From Deltaproteobacteria bacterium (GTDB lineage: Bacteria > Desulfobacterota > Desulfomonilia > Desulfomonilales > Desulfomonilaceae): DNA of 39,819 nucleotides. The position numbers were made by a program, and so were the translations under genes. The stretch covers positions 1 through 39,819 of the forward strand of contig VGSG01000033.1 in NCBI GenBank assembly GCA_016875095.1, written 5' to 3'. Positions 173 through 33,004 of the stretch are shown here, piece after piece. Each line of letters opens with the position of its first letter. Position 1 is the stretch's first letter. The notes beneath the pieces were generated by a model. The model was not told the origin of the DNA. It made no database searches and was given only the letters and a program-made list of their open reading frames with translations.

Positions 173-201
173 TTGACAAGCGCCTGTGCTCAGCCTAATA
201 T
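173..201 (+). promoter_or_regulatory. Sigma70-like promoter of first RRM gene
   Basis: TTGACA at 173-178 and TAATAT at 196-201 are separated by exactly 17 bases, a near-consensus housekeeping promoter. Transcription would start near 208, leaving about 210 untranslated bases before the RRM start codon. The second RRM gene has the same arrangement with the same spacing at 3528-3556. Confidence 0.8.
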
Positions 202-207
202 ACCACT

Positions 208-418
208 CAGGCCTTAACCTGTATTTCTCCGGTCGATCTCTTGTCTGGGCGACGGGCGTTATGCACGGCTTAAGATCAGAGGACATAGGCGCCCGTGGCG
301 AGGACCATCCCGCCTTTTAGCATGCTGGTCTATCCCCGTTCACACAGAGCCCTTGTTCGTAAAGTTCTAACCGCACCGTGAAGGAATCGTCCGGTGTATC
401 TTCCAAAGGAGTGAGAGG
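208..418 (+). promoter_or_regulatory. Conserved long 5' leader of RRM gene, copy 1
   Basis: This untranslated leader aligns without gaps to 3567-3763 over 197 positions (212-408) with 28 mismatches by hand count, about 86% identity. The RRM coding sequences share about 81%. Three possible stems are kept in both copies: ACGGGCG (252-258) with CGCCCGT (290-296); GGCG-A-GGA with TCC-CGCC (297-314); and CACCG (374-378) with CGGTG (392-396). The last stem sits just before the Shine-Dalgarno AAAGGAG at about 405-411. A structured regulatory RNA (autoregulatory or temperature-responsive) is an inference. A small RNA sharing the promoter is an alternative. Confidence 0.65.
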
Positions 419-890: not shown

Positions 891-3074
891 TTAGCGCATC
901 TTTTCGACCCGAGTCCGTTCGGCAGGGTCCTGGTCTCCTCGCGGCAGCAAGTCTCCGCCTTCGTCAATCTCACCGACAAATTCAGGTTCAGCGATTCCCG
1001 AGCGGTTGATTGTCCTGCCAAAGGCCAATCGCTTATTTCCGCTGAGCACAACCAATCCATCCCACTGCTTGCCGTTGGCCGGAACCACGGCAACTCTGTC
1101 GGGGGGCTTAGATTCGCCCACGAGGTCCCTGCCGTCGCTATGCGCGAGGGGGACGGGCCTGCCGGCCAACATGTGCAAAAGAGTCGGGAGGACGTCCATG
1201 TGGGCAGTTGCAGTGGAAACGGTCCTCTTGGGGATCCCCGGCCCGACCATAACAAATGGCGTTCGAAGCTGAATTTCAGACATTCTGTTTGCATGGAGGA
1301 ACACGCCGTCCTCCCCGAGGGATTCCCCGTGGTCACCGGTCACTATGACGATATTTCGCGCCGGATCAATGGATTGGACCAGATTCATCAGCTCGTGTTC
1401 CAGGAACAGCAAAGAGTTCGCGTATCGGCTACTGAGGCCACGAATCCGTTCACGCGAAGTCAGAAATTGCCAAGAACGCCTCGGCTCCAAGAAGACCTGA
1501 AATTCGGGTGAAAATTCGTACGGGTAGTGAGAAGAAACCAGATAGAAGAAAATGAATTGCGGCCCCGCGCCGGATTCCTGCGCCGCGGTCCGGGCGGAAG
1601 CGAGCTTCCAGCGATCGGTGTCAGGCCATTCTTTTGATGCGCTCACAGCGAAGCGACCCTTCGAAAGGATAACGTCACACGTATTTTCGTTGATGTACGA
1701 ATCCACTTTTCGATAACTCTTTATCTCTCCACTGGTGAAAAAGGTGATCCGATAGCCCGATCTGCGGAGACTCTCGAAAAATTGTGAAGGGATCTTTCGA
1801 TCCAACGTCTCATGGTACGCCAGTGGAACTCTTGAATAGAACAGGGAGAAGATGCCTAGATGAGAACAGTTCGAACCTGAGTAATGCCGCTCCAGCCGCA
1901 GTCCTTGTTCAGACCAGGCATGAAGCCTTTTCATCATATGCGGGCTGATAGCGGAATGCCGAAAACTCTCAAAGATAATTAGTATAATGTTGGGTAGATT
2001 CGGTCGTTGAACAAATGCGGACTCGTCGAGAGGGCCCGGGGTTGCCGCGTTTGCAATCAGACTTCTGGCGAGGAGTTCGTCCTCCTCGTCAAAAGGCACG
2101 TGTATGCGTCCTGTGACATCAGGTGAGTCGGTGCGCTCCGAGAAGGAACCGGCGTTCGTTCGGCTCACCCTTGAGACCGGCGACGTGAGACCATCAGTCG
2201 TTAACCCAAAGAGCCGTGAGGCCGCCCTGGTTGCCAGTCGGCCCAGTGACGGTTCGACAGGAGAATCATCAACCCTGTTCTCAAAGAACGAGCCCCCGCG
2301 GGAGACGAGCCCAGGTCGCTGCCTTATTTGTTGAATGTGTTGAGTAACCGCGGAGGGATAGGGTAACGCGTCAACGATTCTATCTATCGCCGGTTGGTCG
2401 TAGCACAAGACCGGCGCCCAGAAAAGTCCGGAGAGGGTCAAGAAGAAGGCTGCCGCGGCGCTTGCCACGGTCTTCCGCGGCCGCAAGCCCTCCCATCTCA
2501 GCGTTCCTCTGCGCACTGCCCATCTAACGGAGAAAAACCAGGCAGGGCCCGCCGCGACGAAGAAGAGAAAGAACACGCCGGCTTCTATGGGGATCCATTC
2601 TTTGATCCATTGCCATACTGTCTGGTCGGGATTTTGCAGCATGTATTGGAAATACGGGGCGTAATCCCAGAGGCGCCAGCCTTGGAAGCCCACGCATATA
2701 ATCTCTGTCGCCATGAAATAGAAAATGCACACCCAAGAGAGGACAAGCGTCACCGCAGCGGCGCTCTTATAACCCAAGACCATAAGCAGCGCCAAGAAAG
2801 GCAGTATTGGAACAAACCACAGCAGGGACTTGGCGATGAGCAGCCAAGACATGAATCCCGCGTCTGCCCAGGACAGAGAAGCGCTCCTCATGCCGAGAAA
2901 ATGATAGTAGCGGTCCCACTCAAATAGGAAAAAGAACAGCAGTGATGATGAAACGAGAAAAGAAATCGCAGTCATCCACTGGATTGCAGAGGAGTCTCTG
3001 TGCGAAGTTATCGTTTTGCTACGGATGTCCGTTCTCACCGTCTGCAAAGCGCCGGGCTCTTTCTGAGGATACAT
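891..3074 (-). CDS. Membrane-anchored sulfatase-fold protein (LtaS/YejM-like)
   Basis: The protein has 727 residues. The N-terminal third carries about five hydrophobic segments (roughly 33-50, 74-100, 106-128, 163-180, 204-224), then a linker, then an alkaline-phosphatase/sulfatase-fold domain from about residue 360. Metal-site signatures are visible: IIFES (E369) and TGDHGES (D581, H582), followed by H594. The nucleophile region reads SNCSHLGIFS (401-410), close to the SNxTxxG pattern of DUF3413/YejM-type proteins but with Ser404 where LtaS-type enzymes use Thr. Such proteins transfer phospho-groups to envelope polymers or act as lipid-sensing pseudo-enzymes; which applies here is unknown. 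The gene is isolated, convergent with the first RRM gene and divergent from the second. The start codon is not supported by a strong ribosome-binding site. Confidence 0.8.
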   Translation of the reverse strand: MYPQKEPGALQTVRTDIRSKTITSHRDSSAIQWMTAISFLVSSSLLFFFLFEWDRYYHFLGMRSASLSWADAGFMSWLLIAKSLLWFVPILPFLALLMVLGYKSAAAVTLVLSWVCIFYFMATEIICVGFQGWRLWDYAPYFQYMLQNPDQTVWQWIKEWIPIEAGVFFLFFVAAGPAWFFSVRWAVRRGTLRWEGLRPRKTVASAAAAFFLTLSGLFWAPVLCYDQPAIDRIVDALPYPSAVTQHIQQIRQRPGLVSRGGSFFENRVDDSPVEPSLGRLATRAASRLFGLTTDGLTSPVSRVSRTNAGSFSERTDSPDVTGRIHVPFDEEDELLARSLIANAATPGPLDESAFVQRPNLPNIILIIFESFRHSAISPHMMKRLHAWSEQGLRLERHYSGSNCSHLGIFSLFYSRVPLAYHETLDRKIPSQFFESLRRSGYRITFFTSGEIKSYRKVDSYINENTCDVILSKGRFAVSASKEWPDTDRWKLASARTAAQESGAGPQFIFFYLVSSHYPYEFSPEFQVFLEPRRSWQFLTSRERIRGLSSRYANSLLFLEHELMNLVQSIDPARNIVIVTGDHGESLGEDGVFLHANRMSEIQLRTPFVMVGPGIPKRTVSTATAHMDVLPTLLHMLAGRPVPLAHSDGRDLVGESKPPDRVAVVPANGKQWDGLVVLSGNKRLAFGRTINRSGIAEPEFVGEIDEGGDLLPRGDQDPAERTRVEKMR

Positions 3075-3527: not shown

Positions 3528-3556
3528 TTGACAAGCAGATATTCTGAGCCTATTAT
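3528..3556 (+). promoter_or_regulatory. Sigma70-like promoter of second RRM gene
   Basis: TTGACA at 3528-3533 and TATTAT at 3551-3556 have a 17-base spacer, the same geometry as at 173-201. The spacer sequence differs between the copies while the leader does not, which suggests the leader is under selection rather than merely recently copied. Confidence 0.8.
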
Positions 3557-3562
3557 TCGTAT

Positions 3563-3773
3563 AGAACCTTAACCTGTGTTTCTCCAGTCGATCTCTCGTC
3601 AGCGCGACGGGCGTTATGCAAGGATTAAGATCTGACGACATAGGCGCCCGTGGCGAGGACCTTCCCGCCGTATAGCAAGCTGGTTTTTCCCCGTACACAC
3701 AGAGCCCTTGGTCGTATACCTCAAACCGCACCGTGCGAGAACCGTTCGGTGTACTTTCCAAAGGAGCTAGAGT
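3563..3773 (+). promoter_or_regulatory. Conserved long 5' leader of RRM gene, copy 2
   Basis: This is the partner of the leader at 208-418. The same stems appear at 3607-3613 with 3645-3651, at 3652-3669, and at 3729-3733 with 3747-3751. The longest run identical in both copies (3638-3661) covers the closing arm of the first stem and the start of the second hairpin. Most differences lie in loops or linkers. Shine-Dalgarno AAAGGAG precedes the ATG at 3774. Confidence 0.65.
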
Positions 3774-4067
3774 ATGAGTATTAACATCTACGTTGGAAAC
3801 CTGTCTTTCGATGCTAACGAAAGCGAACTCAAGGGCTTGTTCGAGACCTATGGGGTCGTCGAGTCGGCGAAGATCATCGCTGACCAATTCACGGGCCGAT
3901 CCCGAGGATTCGGATTCATCGAGATGGAAAATCGTGAAGAAGGTCTTAAAGCGATTCAGGAACTGGATTCCAAGGACCTTAACGGCCGCAGCCTGAAGGT
4001 GAACGAGGCTCGTCCGAAAAACAATTCCGGAGGCGCACGGCGAGACGCGGGAAGATCGCGCTGGTAA
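3774..4067 (+). CDS. Small RRM RNA-binding protein, paralog 2
   Basis: This 97-residue single-RRM protein is a paralog of the one at 419-712, with 15 substitutions that are mostly conservative. RNP2 (IYVGNL) and RNP1 (RGFGFIEM) are intact, and the tail again ends in GRSRW. Both paralogs therefore look functional. A highly self-complementary segment lies directly downstream, before rpsU. Two nearly equal RRM genes within 3.5 kb point to a local duplication that carried promoter and leader along. A role in RNA stabilisation or cold adaptation is inferred from the family only. Confidence 0.93.
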   Translation: MSINIYVGNLSFDANESELKGLFETYGVVESAKIIADQFTGRSRGFGFIEMENREEGLKAIQELDSKDLNGRSLKVNEARPKNNSGGARRDAGRSRW

Positions 4068-30911: not shown

Positions 30912-31043
30912 GACACAATTCTTGAGCCGGAAAGCCGGCCAGAAGATCCAGATCAAGCTTGACTTTCGTGACCAAGAAATTGTAATCTAGCCTCAGAACA
31001 CAGGGGATGGAGTCCCCCGCACAAAACTGCCTGACCGGCTGAT

Positions 31044-31076
31044 GACTCCTGCCGTGGAGATCCTACGGTGGGAGTC
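31044..31076 (+). other. Hairpin between queF and terminator
   Basis: GACTCC (31044-31049) pairs with GGAGTC (31071-31076) and CCGT (31052-31055) with ACGG (31065-31068), with symmetric TG/TG internal loops. It lies 13 bases before the terminator, so it may be part of a structured 3' untranslated region or a small RNA. Confidence 0.5.
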
Positions 31077-31171: not shown

Positions 31172-33004
31172 GTGACCACTCCAACCATAGAGCATTCCGA
31201 CCGAAGAACCTTAATAGGCCTGTCGCCGCAAGTTTCGAGATCTTCAATAGATTTCCAGCTCCTCCTCGGGCAAGGGGTGAAAAAAGCACAGGATCTGGGA
31301 ACAGAGTTCTCCTTGGACTGCGAAAAGCTCCTGGCTCTTCGCACTCGAATGGAAGAGGGACGGTTTCACCTTGCCGTTTTAGGACAATTCAAGCGGGGGA
31401 AAAGTACACTACTTAACTCTTTCCTGGGACAACCGCTCTTGCCCACTTCGGTAGTGCCCTTGACCGCGATACCGACTTTCCTTGAATACGGACCTAAACT
31501 GCACGTGCGAGTCCGTTTTCAGGACGAGAGACCTGCCAAGGAGTTCTCTGGGAAATCGCTGGACGAGCTCATGAGCGTTCTACAAGGATTTGTTACAGAG
31601 GAAGGCAACCCAAGAAACTGCCTCGGAGTTCTGCAAGTAGAGGTCCAGCATCCGGCGGACATACTCCAACACGGCGTGGTTCTGATCGATACCCCGGGCA
31701 TCGGGTCCACGTTTACGCACAATACCGAGGCCACGCTCAATTTCTTGCCCCAATGCGACGCAGCGTTGTTTGTCGTGTCGGCCGATCCTCCCCTCACCGA
31801 GGTGGAGGCCCGATTCTTGAATGAGGTGCAGCAAAGAGTTTCTCGTCTCTTTTTCATCTTCAATAAGATGGATTACCTCAACGAACAAGAAAAGGAAGCC
31901 GCTCTTGGCTTCTTCAGGAAAGTTCTCGCTGAGAAGACTCAGGGCGGCGATCAGCACCCCATCTTCTGTGTCTCCGCGCGACGAGCGCTCGACGCAAAGC
32001 TTTTCGACGATCAAAACCTTTGGGCGCAGAGCGGTCTAGAAGGTGTTGAAGACCACTTGATGGGCTTTCTCGTTTCGGAGAAGACCAGGGCTTTGCGTGA
32101 AGCTCTAGGGAAGAAAGTGAGCGACGTGTTGGAAGAAGTGGTCATGCGCTTACGTCTCAGCATCCGATCACTTCAGATTCCCCTGCACGATCTCGAAGAA
32201 AGATTGAAGGTATTCGAAAAGGAACTGAAAAACGCTGAGCAGCAGCGCGTAACAGCTCAGGATTTGCTTACGGGCGACAGAAAGCGCACGCTCGTACGGC
32301 TGGAAGAAGCGGCAGAAGCTTTGCGCGAGAAGTCCATCTCACATCTTGAACAGGTCGTTGAAGCCTCATTTTCCGCTATGGAAGACGGTGAGTTCCAAGA
32401 AGCGTCGGTTCTTGATGCACTGGCGGAAGAAGTAACATCGTTCTTTCAGAGTTCCGCAGAAGGTGTCTCAACAGGTTTTGGTCGGCACGTGACTGAAACT
32501 CTCAAGCCACATCAAGAAAGGGCCGACGAACTGATCAAGAATATTCGAAAGGCTGCCGCGGAGCTGTTCGATATTCCATATCACGCGCCGGAAAGCGCCG
32601 AAGCCTTTGAAATCAAACGGCGGCCTTACTGGGTCTTGCGTAAGCGAGTACCCACTCTCCCGATCGTGATCCCGGAGGAGGCGCTGGACAAGCTCCTCCC
32701 CGCGTCACTTCGAAAAGGCCGGCTTAAGAAACGACTTTCGCGCCAGATTGAAGCTCTGGTGCGGCATAACGTCGAGAACCTGCGATGGGCCACGCTCCAA
32801 AATCTCAATGACGCGTTTCACCGCTTCGGCACGATTCTGGATCAACGCTTCGAGGAGACAATATCAGCAACTCATGGAGCGATCCAGGCGGCGTACACGA
32901 AGCGCAAGGAACACTCAGAAGCCATCGTGGACGATGTGGTTCGGTTCGAGGGGGCTGCCACAGAGCTTGCGGCAATTGCTCAGGAGATTCACGAGGCAAC
33001 ATGA
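31172..33004 (+). CDS. Bacterial dynamin-like GTPase
   Basis: The 610-residue protein has a dynamin-type GTPase domain: P-loop GQFKRGKST (71-79), switch threonine in VVPLTAIPT, DTPG (173-176) and NKMD (231-234). A long helical region (about 320-610) with several coiled coils follows. A central hydrophobic/basic patch near 490-530 could be the membrane-binding paddle. Dynamin-like proteins remodel membranes; bacterial ones act in membrane protection, vesicle formation or phage defence. The start is GTG at 31172 after GAGG. The gene overlaps the next by ATGA, and the next overlaps the third, so the three products are probably made together. Confidence 0.92.
   Translation: MTTPTIEHSDRRTLIGLSPQVSRSSIDFQLLLGQGVKKAQDLGTEFSLDCEKLLALRTRMEEGRFHLAVLGQFKRGKSTLLNSFLGQPLLPTSVVPLTAIPTFLEYGPKLHVRVRFQDERPAKEFSGKSLDELMSVLQGFVTEEGNPRNCLGVLQVEVQHPADILQHGVVLIDTPGIGSTFTHNTEATLNFLPQCDAALFVVSADPPLTEVEARFLNEVQQRVSRLFFIFNKMDYLNEQEKEAALGFFRKVLAEKTQGGDQHPIFCVSARRALDAKLFDDQNLWAQSGLEGVEDHLMGFLVSEKTRALREALGKKVSDVLEEVVMRLRLSIRSLQIPLHDLEERLKVFEKELKNAEQQRVTAQDLLTGDRKRTLVRLEEAAEALREKSISHLEQVVEASFSAMEDGEFQEASVLDALAEEVTSFFQSSAEGVSTGFGRHVTETLKPHQERADELIKNIRKAAAELFDIPYHAPESAEAFEIKRRPYWVLRKRVPTLPIVIPEEALDKLLPASLRKGRLKKRLSRQIEALVRHNVENLRWATLQNLNDAFHRFGTILDQRFEETISATHGAIQAAYTKRKEHSEAIVDDVVRFEGAATELAAIAQEIHEAT

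Follow-up and report, generated by a model that had tools for sequence, protein, structure and literature searches.

Twin RRM genes and their leaders

The window analysed here is a whole contig of 39,819 bases (VGSG01000033.1), and it carries on its plus strand two copies of a gene for a 97-amino-acid protein with an RNA recognition motif (RRM), at 419–712 and 3774–4067. Each gene is preceded by a conserved untranslated leader RNA, the subject of this study, at 213–418 for copy 1 (206 nucleotides, nt) and at 3568–3773 for copy 2. Both proteins have a canonical RRM domain, scoring 76.7 and 80.1 bits against PF00076 and 118.3 and 116 bits against NF058537 (Rbp_regulator), which bears the NCBIfam name 'RNA-binding regulator'. 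Against R1, a covariance model of 205 positions that we built from 27 such leaders (aligned and folded with RNAalifold), copy 1 scores 178.5 bits, its own sequence being among the training leaders, and copy 2 scores 180.6 bits.

An earlier reading of the window from its letters alone (the sequence-only reading) had remarked that both copies have the same promoter geometry, and this is the case: the sigma-70-type promoter of copy 1 reads TTGACA, 17 nt, TAATAT (173–201), and that of copy 2 reads TTGACA, 17 nt, TATTAT (3528–3556). A ribosome-binding site, AGGAG, follows at 407–411 in copy 1. BLAST aligns the twins without a gap from position 166, just upstream of the promoter, through the stop codon. 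The leaders differ at 31 positions over 212–418 (207 nt, 85.0% identical) and the coding DNA at 54 of 291 (81.4%), 39 of these 54 falling at codon position 3. The earlier coding count of 54 in 291 was exact; its leader count of 28 mismatches in 197 positions (86%) was slightly low, the same length over 222–418 holding 31 (84.3%), and the high identity stands.

Distribution and linkage to RRM genes

We compared the leader across the window's own family, inferred to be Desulfomonilaceae from relatives of Desulfomonile, a genus that a taxonomy look-up places in Desulfomonilaceae, Thermodesulfobacteriota. With leader 1 as the BLAST query, 14 of 148 genomes gave a match, all of them from this family. 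The covariance-model search that the sequence-only reading had proposed recovered the leader in all 18 family genomes examined, with 52 R1 matches in total, of which 25 are independent because the other 27 trained the model. At least two copies occur in 14 of the 18 genomes, each with its own RRM gene. Leader length is 189–206 nt in the 27 training leaders.

Linkage to RRM genes is strict. All 52 family matches directly precede an RRM gene and end 11–18 nt upstream of the RRM domain match, that is, at the start codon. By PF00076 the 18 genomes contain 66 RRM genes, and 14 of these lack an R1 match. With the search filters off, six of these 14 (L106, L123, L001, L118, L110 and L101) have weaker, significant matches in the right place (16.5–28.7 bits, E < 0.001), the one at L123 being cut by a contig edge. 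The match at L121 is marginal (E 0.038) and that at L120 is not significant (7.4 bits, E 0.22); the RRM genes at L124 and L126 start at a contig edge, and at L127 the leader core is visible by eye upstream of a stretch of N. Alignment A2, used below, holds 59 leaders: the 52 R1 matches and seven diverged leaders taken from the 14 (L120 was kept; L119 and L122–L127 were left out). Counts over 58 leaders omit L101, whose start codon went unrecognised by the script that tabulated the leaders.

The signals that flank the leader are also shared. A loose script, run with no chance control, finds a similar promoter before 54 of the 58 leaders, with 39–40 nt from the start of the −35 element to the leader start in 35 of these 54. 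AAGGA or TAGGA lies within the last 20 nt in all 58, AGGA stands 8–9 nt upstream of the start codon in 49, and 56 of the 58 are 189–207 nt long.

The class contains one other family, here called the sister family. R1 has no match in any of 24 genomes from it, and the leader is present at none of 20 RRM loci there (best 7.9 bits, E 0.31). The expectation that relatives would carry the leader before their RRM genes therefore holds within the family and fails in its sister. When 395 genomes sampled evenly across the phylum were searched, with stricter filters that may lose weak matches, six gave an R1 match and five of these six belong to the family; the sixth (81 nt, 21.7 bits) we took as chance, no reading frame having been found directly downstream. 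A pattern scan of contigs from species genomes returned 48 stretches, of which 21 match R1 and 27 show neither an R1 match nor an RRM motif; a simple motif picked out an RRM gene at 19 of the 21. These matches overlap the family set and are not counted as further cases. Eight stretches of viral contigs fit the pattern and none matches R1. Judged by sequence comparison, the leader is a family-specific RNA and more than a duplication within the window.

In one sister-family genus five RRM genes (L091–L095) have a strongly conserved leader of their own, at about 110 nt before the gene, with no R1 match; L090, from the same genus, differs in its leader. RRM leaders may have more than one evolutionary origin.

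Conservation of the leader

The sequence-only reading had argued that the leader is better conserved than the coding sequence behind it. This is true of the twins and does not extend to the family. Among 595 pairs formed by 35 of the 58 leaders (a motif filter set the sample and also lost the good leaders L068, L045, L059 and L081), mean identity is 71.3% for the leader, against 73.9% for RRM coding DNA; in 34% of pairs the leader is more alike than the coding DNA as a whole. The same pairs average 50.5% at third codon positions, 78.2% in protein and 36.0% in the DNA 40–110 nt upstream of the leader. Because leader identity beats that of third codon positions (the proportion of pairs is given as 1.00) and is far above that of the upstream DNA, the comparison indicates that the leader is truly under selection, of a strength near that on protein-coding DNA and not above it. 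In the 27-leader alignment, near-invariant stretches are spread over about 150 nt.

Structure of the leader

From A2 we drew a structure in which the 5' end of the leader pairs with the region past a conserved CGGGCGU box (helix S1 with an outer extension), and the box itself pairs with CGCCCGUG further downstream (helix S2). S1 and S2 cross and therefore together would form an H-type pseudoknot. In this structure 85.1% of the cells of the alignment are paired, against 36–48% when it is slid by 1–3 columns. Its covariation score was reached by none of 500 column shuffles; relatedness among sequences can be enough to pass this control in the absence of structure. The slid controls are exceeded only in percentage paired, pair types and covariation score.

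The helices differ in how they vary. In copy 1, the outer extension joins CUUAA (213–217) to UUAAG (270–274); over A2, 84.1% of its cells are paired and all five pairs change on both sides. S1 proper joins 218–224 to 261–267, with one mismatch in copy 1, 91.7% of cells paired and changes on both sides at four of seven pairs. S2 joins 251–258 to 290–297, its outermost pair unformed in copy 1, with 91.1% of cells paired and both-side changes at one of eight pairs; the evidence for it is mainly one-sided changes, plus a C–G to U–A replacement at one pair in five leaders. Downstream lie the P2 hairpin (299–338; 299–304 with 333–338, one internal mismatch, 80.9% of cells paired) and the predicted P3 hairpin (373–397), which adjoins the ribosome-binding site. 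Copy 2 has the same internal features at an offset of +3355, its P3 hairpin at 3728–3752.

We also asked how native arms compare in pairing energy with the mean of arms swapped between leaders, using 46 non-redundant leaders of 58 for P3 and 47 of 59 for the other helices. The P3 sequence changes widely while its arms co-vary: the native arms pair better in 39 of 46 leaders (mean −10.87 against −8.27 kcal/mol), and two control pairings each reach 15 of 46. S1 is favoured in 40 of 47 leaders, the base of P2 in 34 and its inner helix in 27, against 22 of 47 for a control; for the outer extension of S1 the energies were not usable.

Over 58 leaders, the 55 nt upstream of the ribosome-binding site have a mean folding z of −1.09. 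The stem that the sequence-only reading placed directly before this site is indeed predicted in both copies, unremarkable against shuffles in copy 1 (z = −0.64) and lower in copy 2 (z = −2.06). RNAalifold run on the segment before the ribosome-binding site alone returned no pairs, and a mutual-information scan of alignment A1 showed no clear helix. Single-sequence folding energy was not significant and was dropped as proof of structure.

RNAalifold offers an alternative to the pseudoknot, two nested hairpins that have S1 in common with our structure and pair the 3' arm of S2 otherwise. The 5' pseudoknot is the favoured model over this two-hairpin fold, though not proven. S2 and the alternative P2 pairing have strands in common, and two folds are therefore possible; if both occur, as they may, the leader RNA would be a switch. 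The proposal that the leader is a functional structured RNA is well supported by its presence in 18 of 18 family genomes, its occurrence there before RRM genes only and the co-varying arms of P3 and S1, the covariation that the sequence-only reading had called for.

Relation to known RNAs

The window leader (160–430) has no match in Rfam release 15 at E values up to 5, the scan suggested by the sequence-only reading. At the loci of nine relatives the sole Rfam match is a cobalamin riboswitch (RF00174, 108.7 bits, at L049 2717–2904, plus strand), unrelated to the leader and about 1 kb away from one.

The Chlorobi-RRM RNA motif (RF01697) is defined by its position before RRM genes, where the family leader likewise stands (52 of 52 matches), and differs from it in size, with a model of 73 positions against 205 for R1. 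RF01697 has no match over its cut-off of 45 in 42 genomes of the class; one match reaches 19.7 bits (E 0.19). In tabulated form, the motif is listed as found in Chlorobi and as probably RNA, probably cis-regulatory and probably not a riboswitch (PMC2864571). By these comparisons Chlorobi-RRM is the nearest catalogued kind that we found, and the leader is not a match to its model.

Two further systems are alike by description. Cyanobacterial rbp genes encode short single-RRM proteins and have conserved elements in the 5' untranslated region (UTR), the cold boxes (PMC9333190), a pairing of small RRM protein and conserved 5' UTR element that resembles the one seen here. The rbpB mRNA of Bacteroides thetaiotaomicron contains a binding site for the RRM protein that it encodes (PMC11697453), and is a precedent for an RRM protein with a site in its own mRNA. 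Among the matches listed in a search of open-licence PMC literature, none describes the leader. We class the leader as a new family within an established kind of RNA, the RRM-gene leader.

Proposed autogenous control and alternative explanations

On balance, we favour a cis-regulatory role for the leader, as a family-specific and probably pseudoknotted RNA through which the RRM protein exerts autogenous control. In excess, the RRM protein made from a gene, and probably also that made from its paralogs, would bind the leader of the gene's mRNA; binding would affect P3 and the stretch just upstream of the ribosome-binding site, and the likely outcome would be translational repression, lowering RRM synthesis. 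In the 18 family genomes the leader is restricted to genes of the putative regulator (52 of 52 matches). Such a restriction over many RRM paralogs, with the ribosome-binding site at the end of the leader, is what one would expect if the RNA-binding protein regulated its own genes. Comparison among genomes establishes the conservation, the restriction to RRM genes, the pairing of S1 and P3 (that of S2 less firmly) and the position from promoter to start codon. Autoregulation by RRM protein, which the sequence-only reading had raised, is the best fit among the readings, and one that we infer. A bolder extension, which we regard as doubtful, is that paralogous RRM proteins cross-regulate through one common pseudoknotted leader receptor, in the manner of eukaryotic RRM feedback, with leaders independently evolved elsewhere (the sister family, Chlorobi-RRM).

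Several observations weigh against autogenous control through a pseudoknotted leader. Exclusive linkage is expected of any gene-specific leader too, and at three family RRM genes (L119, L122 and L125) no leader match reaches significance (the best has 5.4 bits, E 0.82). Changes on both sides of a pair (16 pairs, 54 cells) are not above those in the slid controls (14–17 pairs, 44–63 cells). S2 varies mostly on one side and gains no support from arm swapping (25 of 47), and the nested two-hairpin version scores nearly as well as the pseudoknot, with 82.5% against 85.1% of cells paired. The folding energy of the whole leader is not below that of shuffles (z = 0.83 and −0.66).

Among the rival explanations, we rate control by temperature the likeliest. 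The cspA mRNA has a long 5' UTR before a gene for a small RNA-binding protein, of a family other than RRM, and this leader refolds with temperature. By the same logic our leader would refold and RRM protein would be made in the cold, for which the two possible folds and the cold-linked rbp genes of cyanobacteria could speak. In copy 1 alone, predicted accessibility of the ribosome-binding site does fall with heat, from 0.99 at 10 °C to 0.47 at 55 °C. It is flat in copy 2, and the mean over 58 leaders goes from 0.33 to 0.38 across the same range, equal to shuffled leaders (0.32 to 0.37), in a calculation confined to nested folds that ignores pseudoknots and kinetics. Unlike the cspA thermosensor, family leaders thus show no temperature signal on average, and the temperature switch that the sequence-only reading had offered beside autoregulation seems unlikely to us. 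Transcription attenuation, with P3 as an intrinsic terminator and the 5' domain as a sensor that decides read-through, is less probable again. Hairpins with T-rich stretches do occur in attenuators, and in 35 of 58 leaders P3 is followed by such a stretch (at least five T in eight bases, no chance expectation computed) near the ribosome-binding site; it is absent in the other 23, a consensus scan finds no plus-strand terminator in either window copy, and no family match stands before a non-RRM gene, unlike a typical metabolite riboswitch. We give slightly less weight still to a structured leader that sets only mRNA stability or a constant level of translation, with no switch. Conservation and structure alone do not prove regulation; in our judgement, near-invariant stretches over so much of the leader exceed the apparent need of a stabiliser.

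Two other candidates do not match the observations. Metabolite riboswitches occur before metabolic or transport genes, and all 52 matches in the 18 genomes stand before RRM genes. A conserved leader peptide starting at a GTG in the 3' arm of S2 (conserved in 55 of 58 leaders) would occupy a frame that in 24 of 58 leaders comes close to the RRM start (17 and 15 for the other frames), averages 30.8 codons (26.1 and 23.2) and ends at the RRM start codon in seven of 58. We rejected it because differences are even over codon positions (1862, 1709 and 1899 in 118 equal-length pairs) and the GTG frame is short in many leaders.

To our knowledge, little is known of how bacteria control RRM protein levels and of which RNA these proteins specifically recognise. 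A large conserved RRM-linked leader offers a concrete candidate ligand for the joint study of binding, structure and feedback.

Other features of the window

Between the twin RRM genes, at 891–3074 on the minus strand, lies a gene for a 727-amino-acid protein with weak likeness to YejM and to phosphoethanolamine transferases, each match falling short of its NCBIfam cut-off. On the plus strand, a fluoride riboswitch (RF01734, 51.6 bits) at 30994–31058 is 113 nt upstream of the start listed for an open reading frame (31172–33004) that is not an obvious fluoride exporter but a dynamin-family GTPase gene (Dynamin_N, 96.1 bits).
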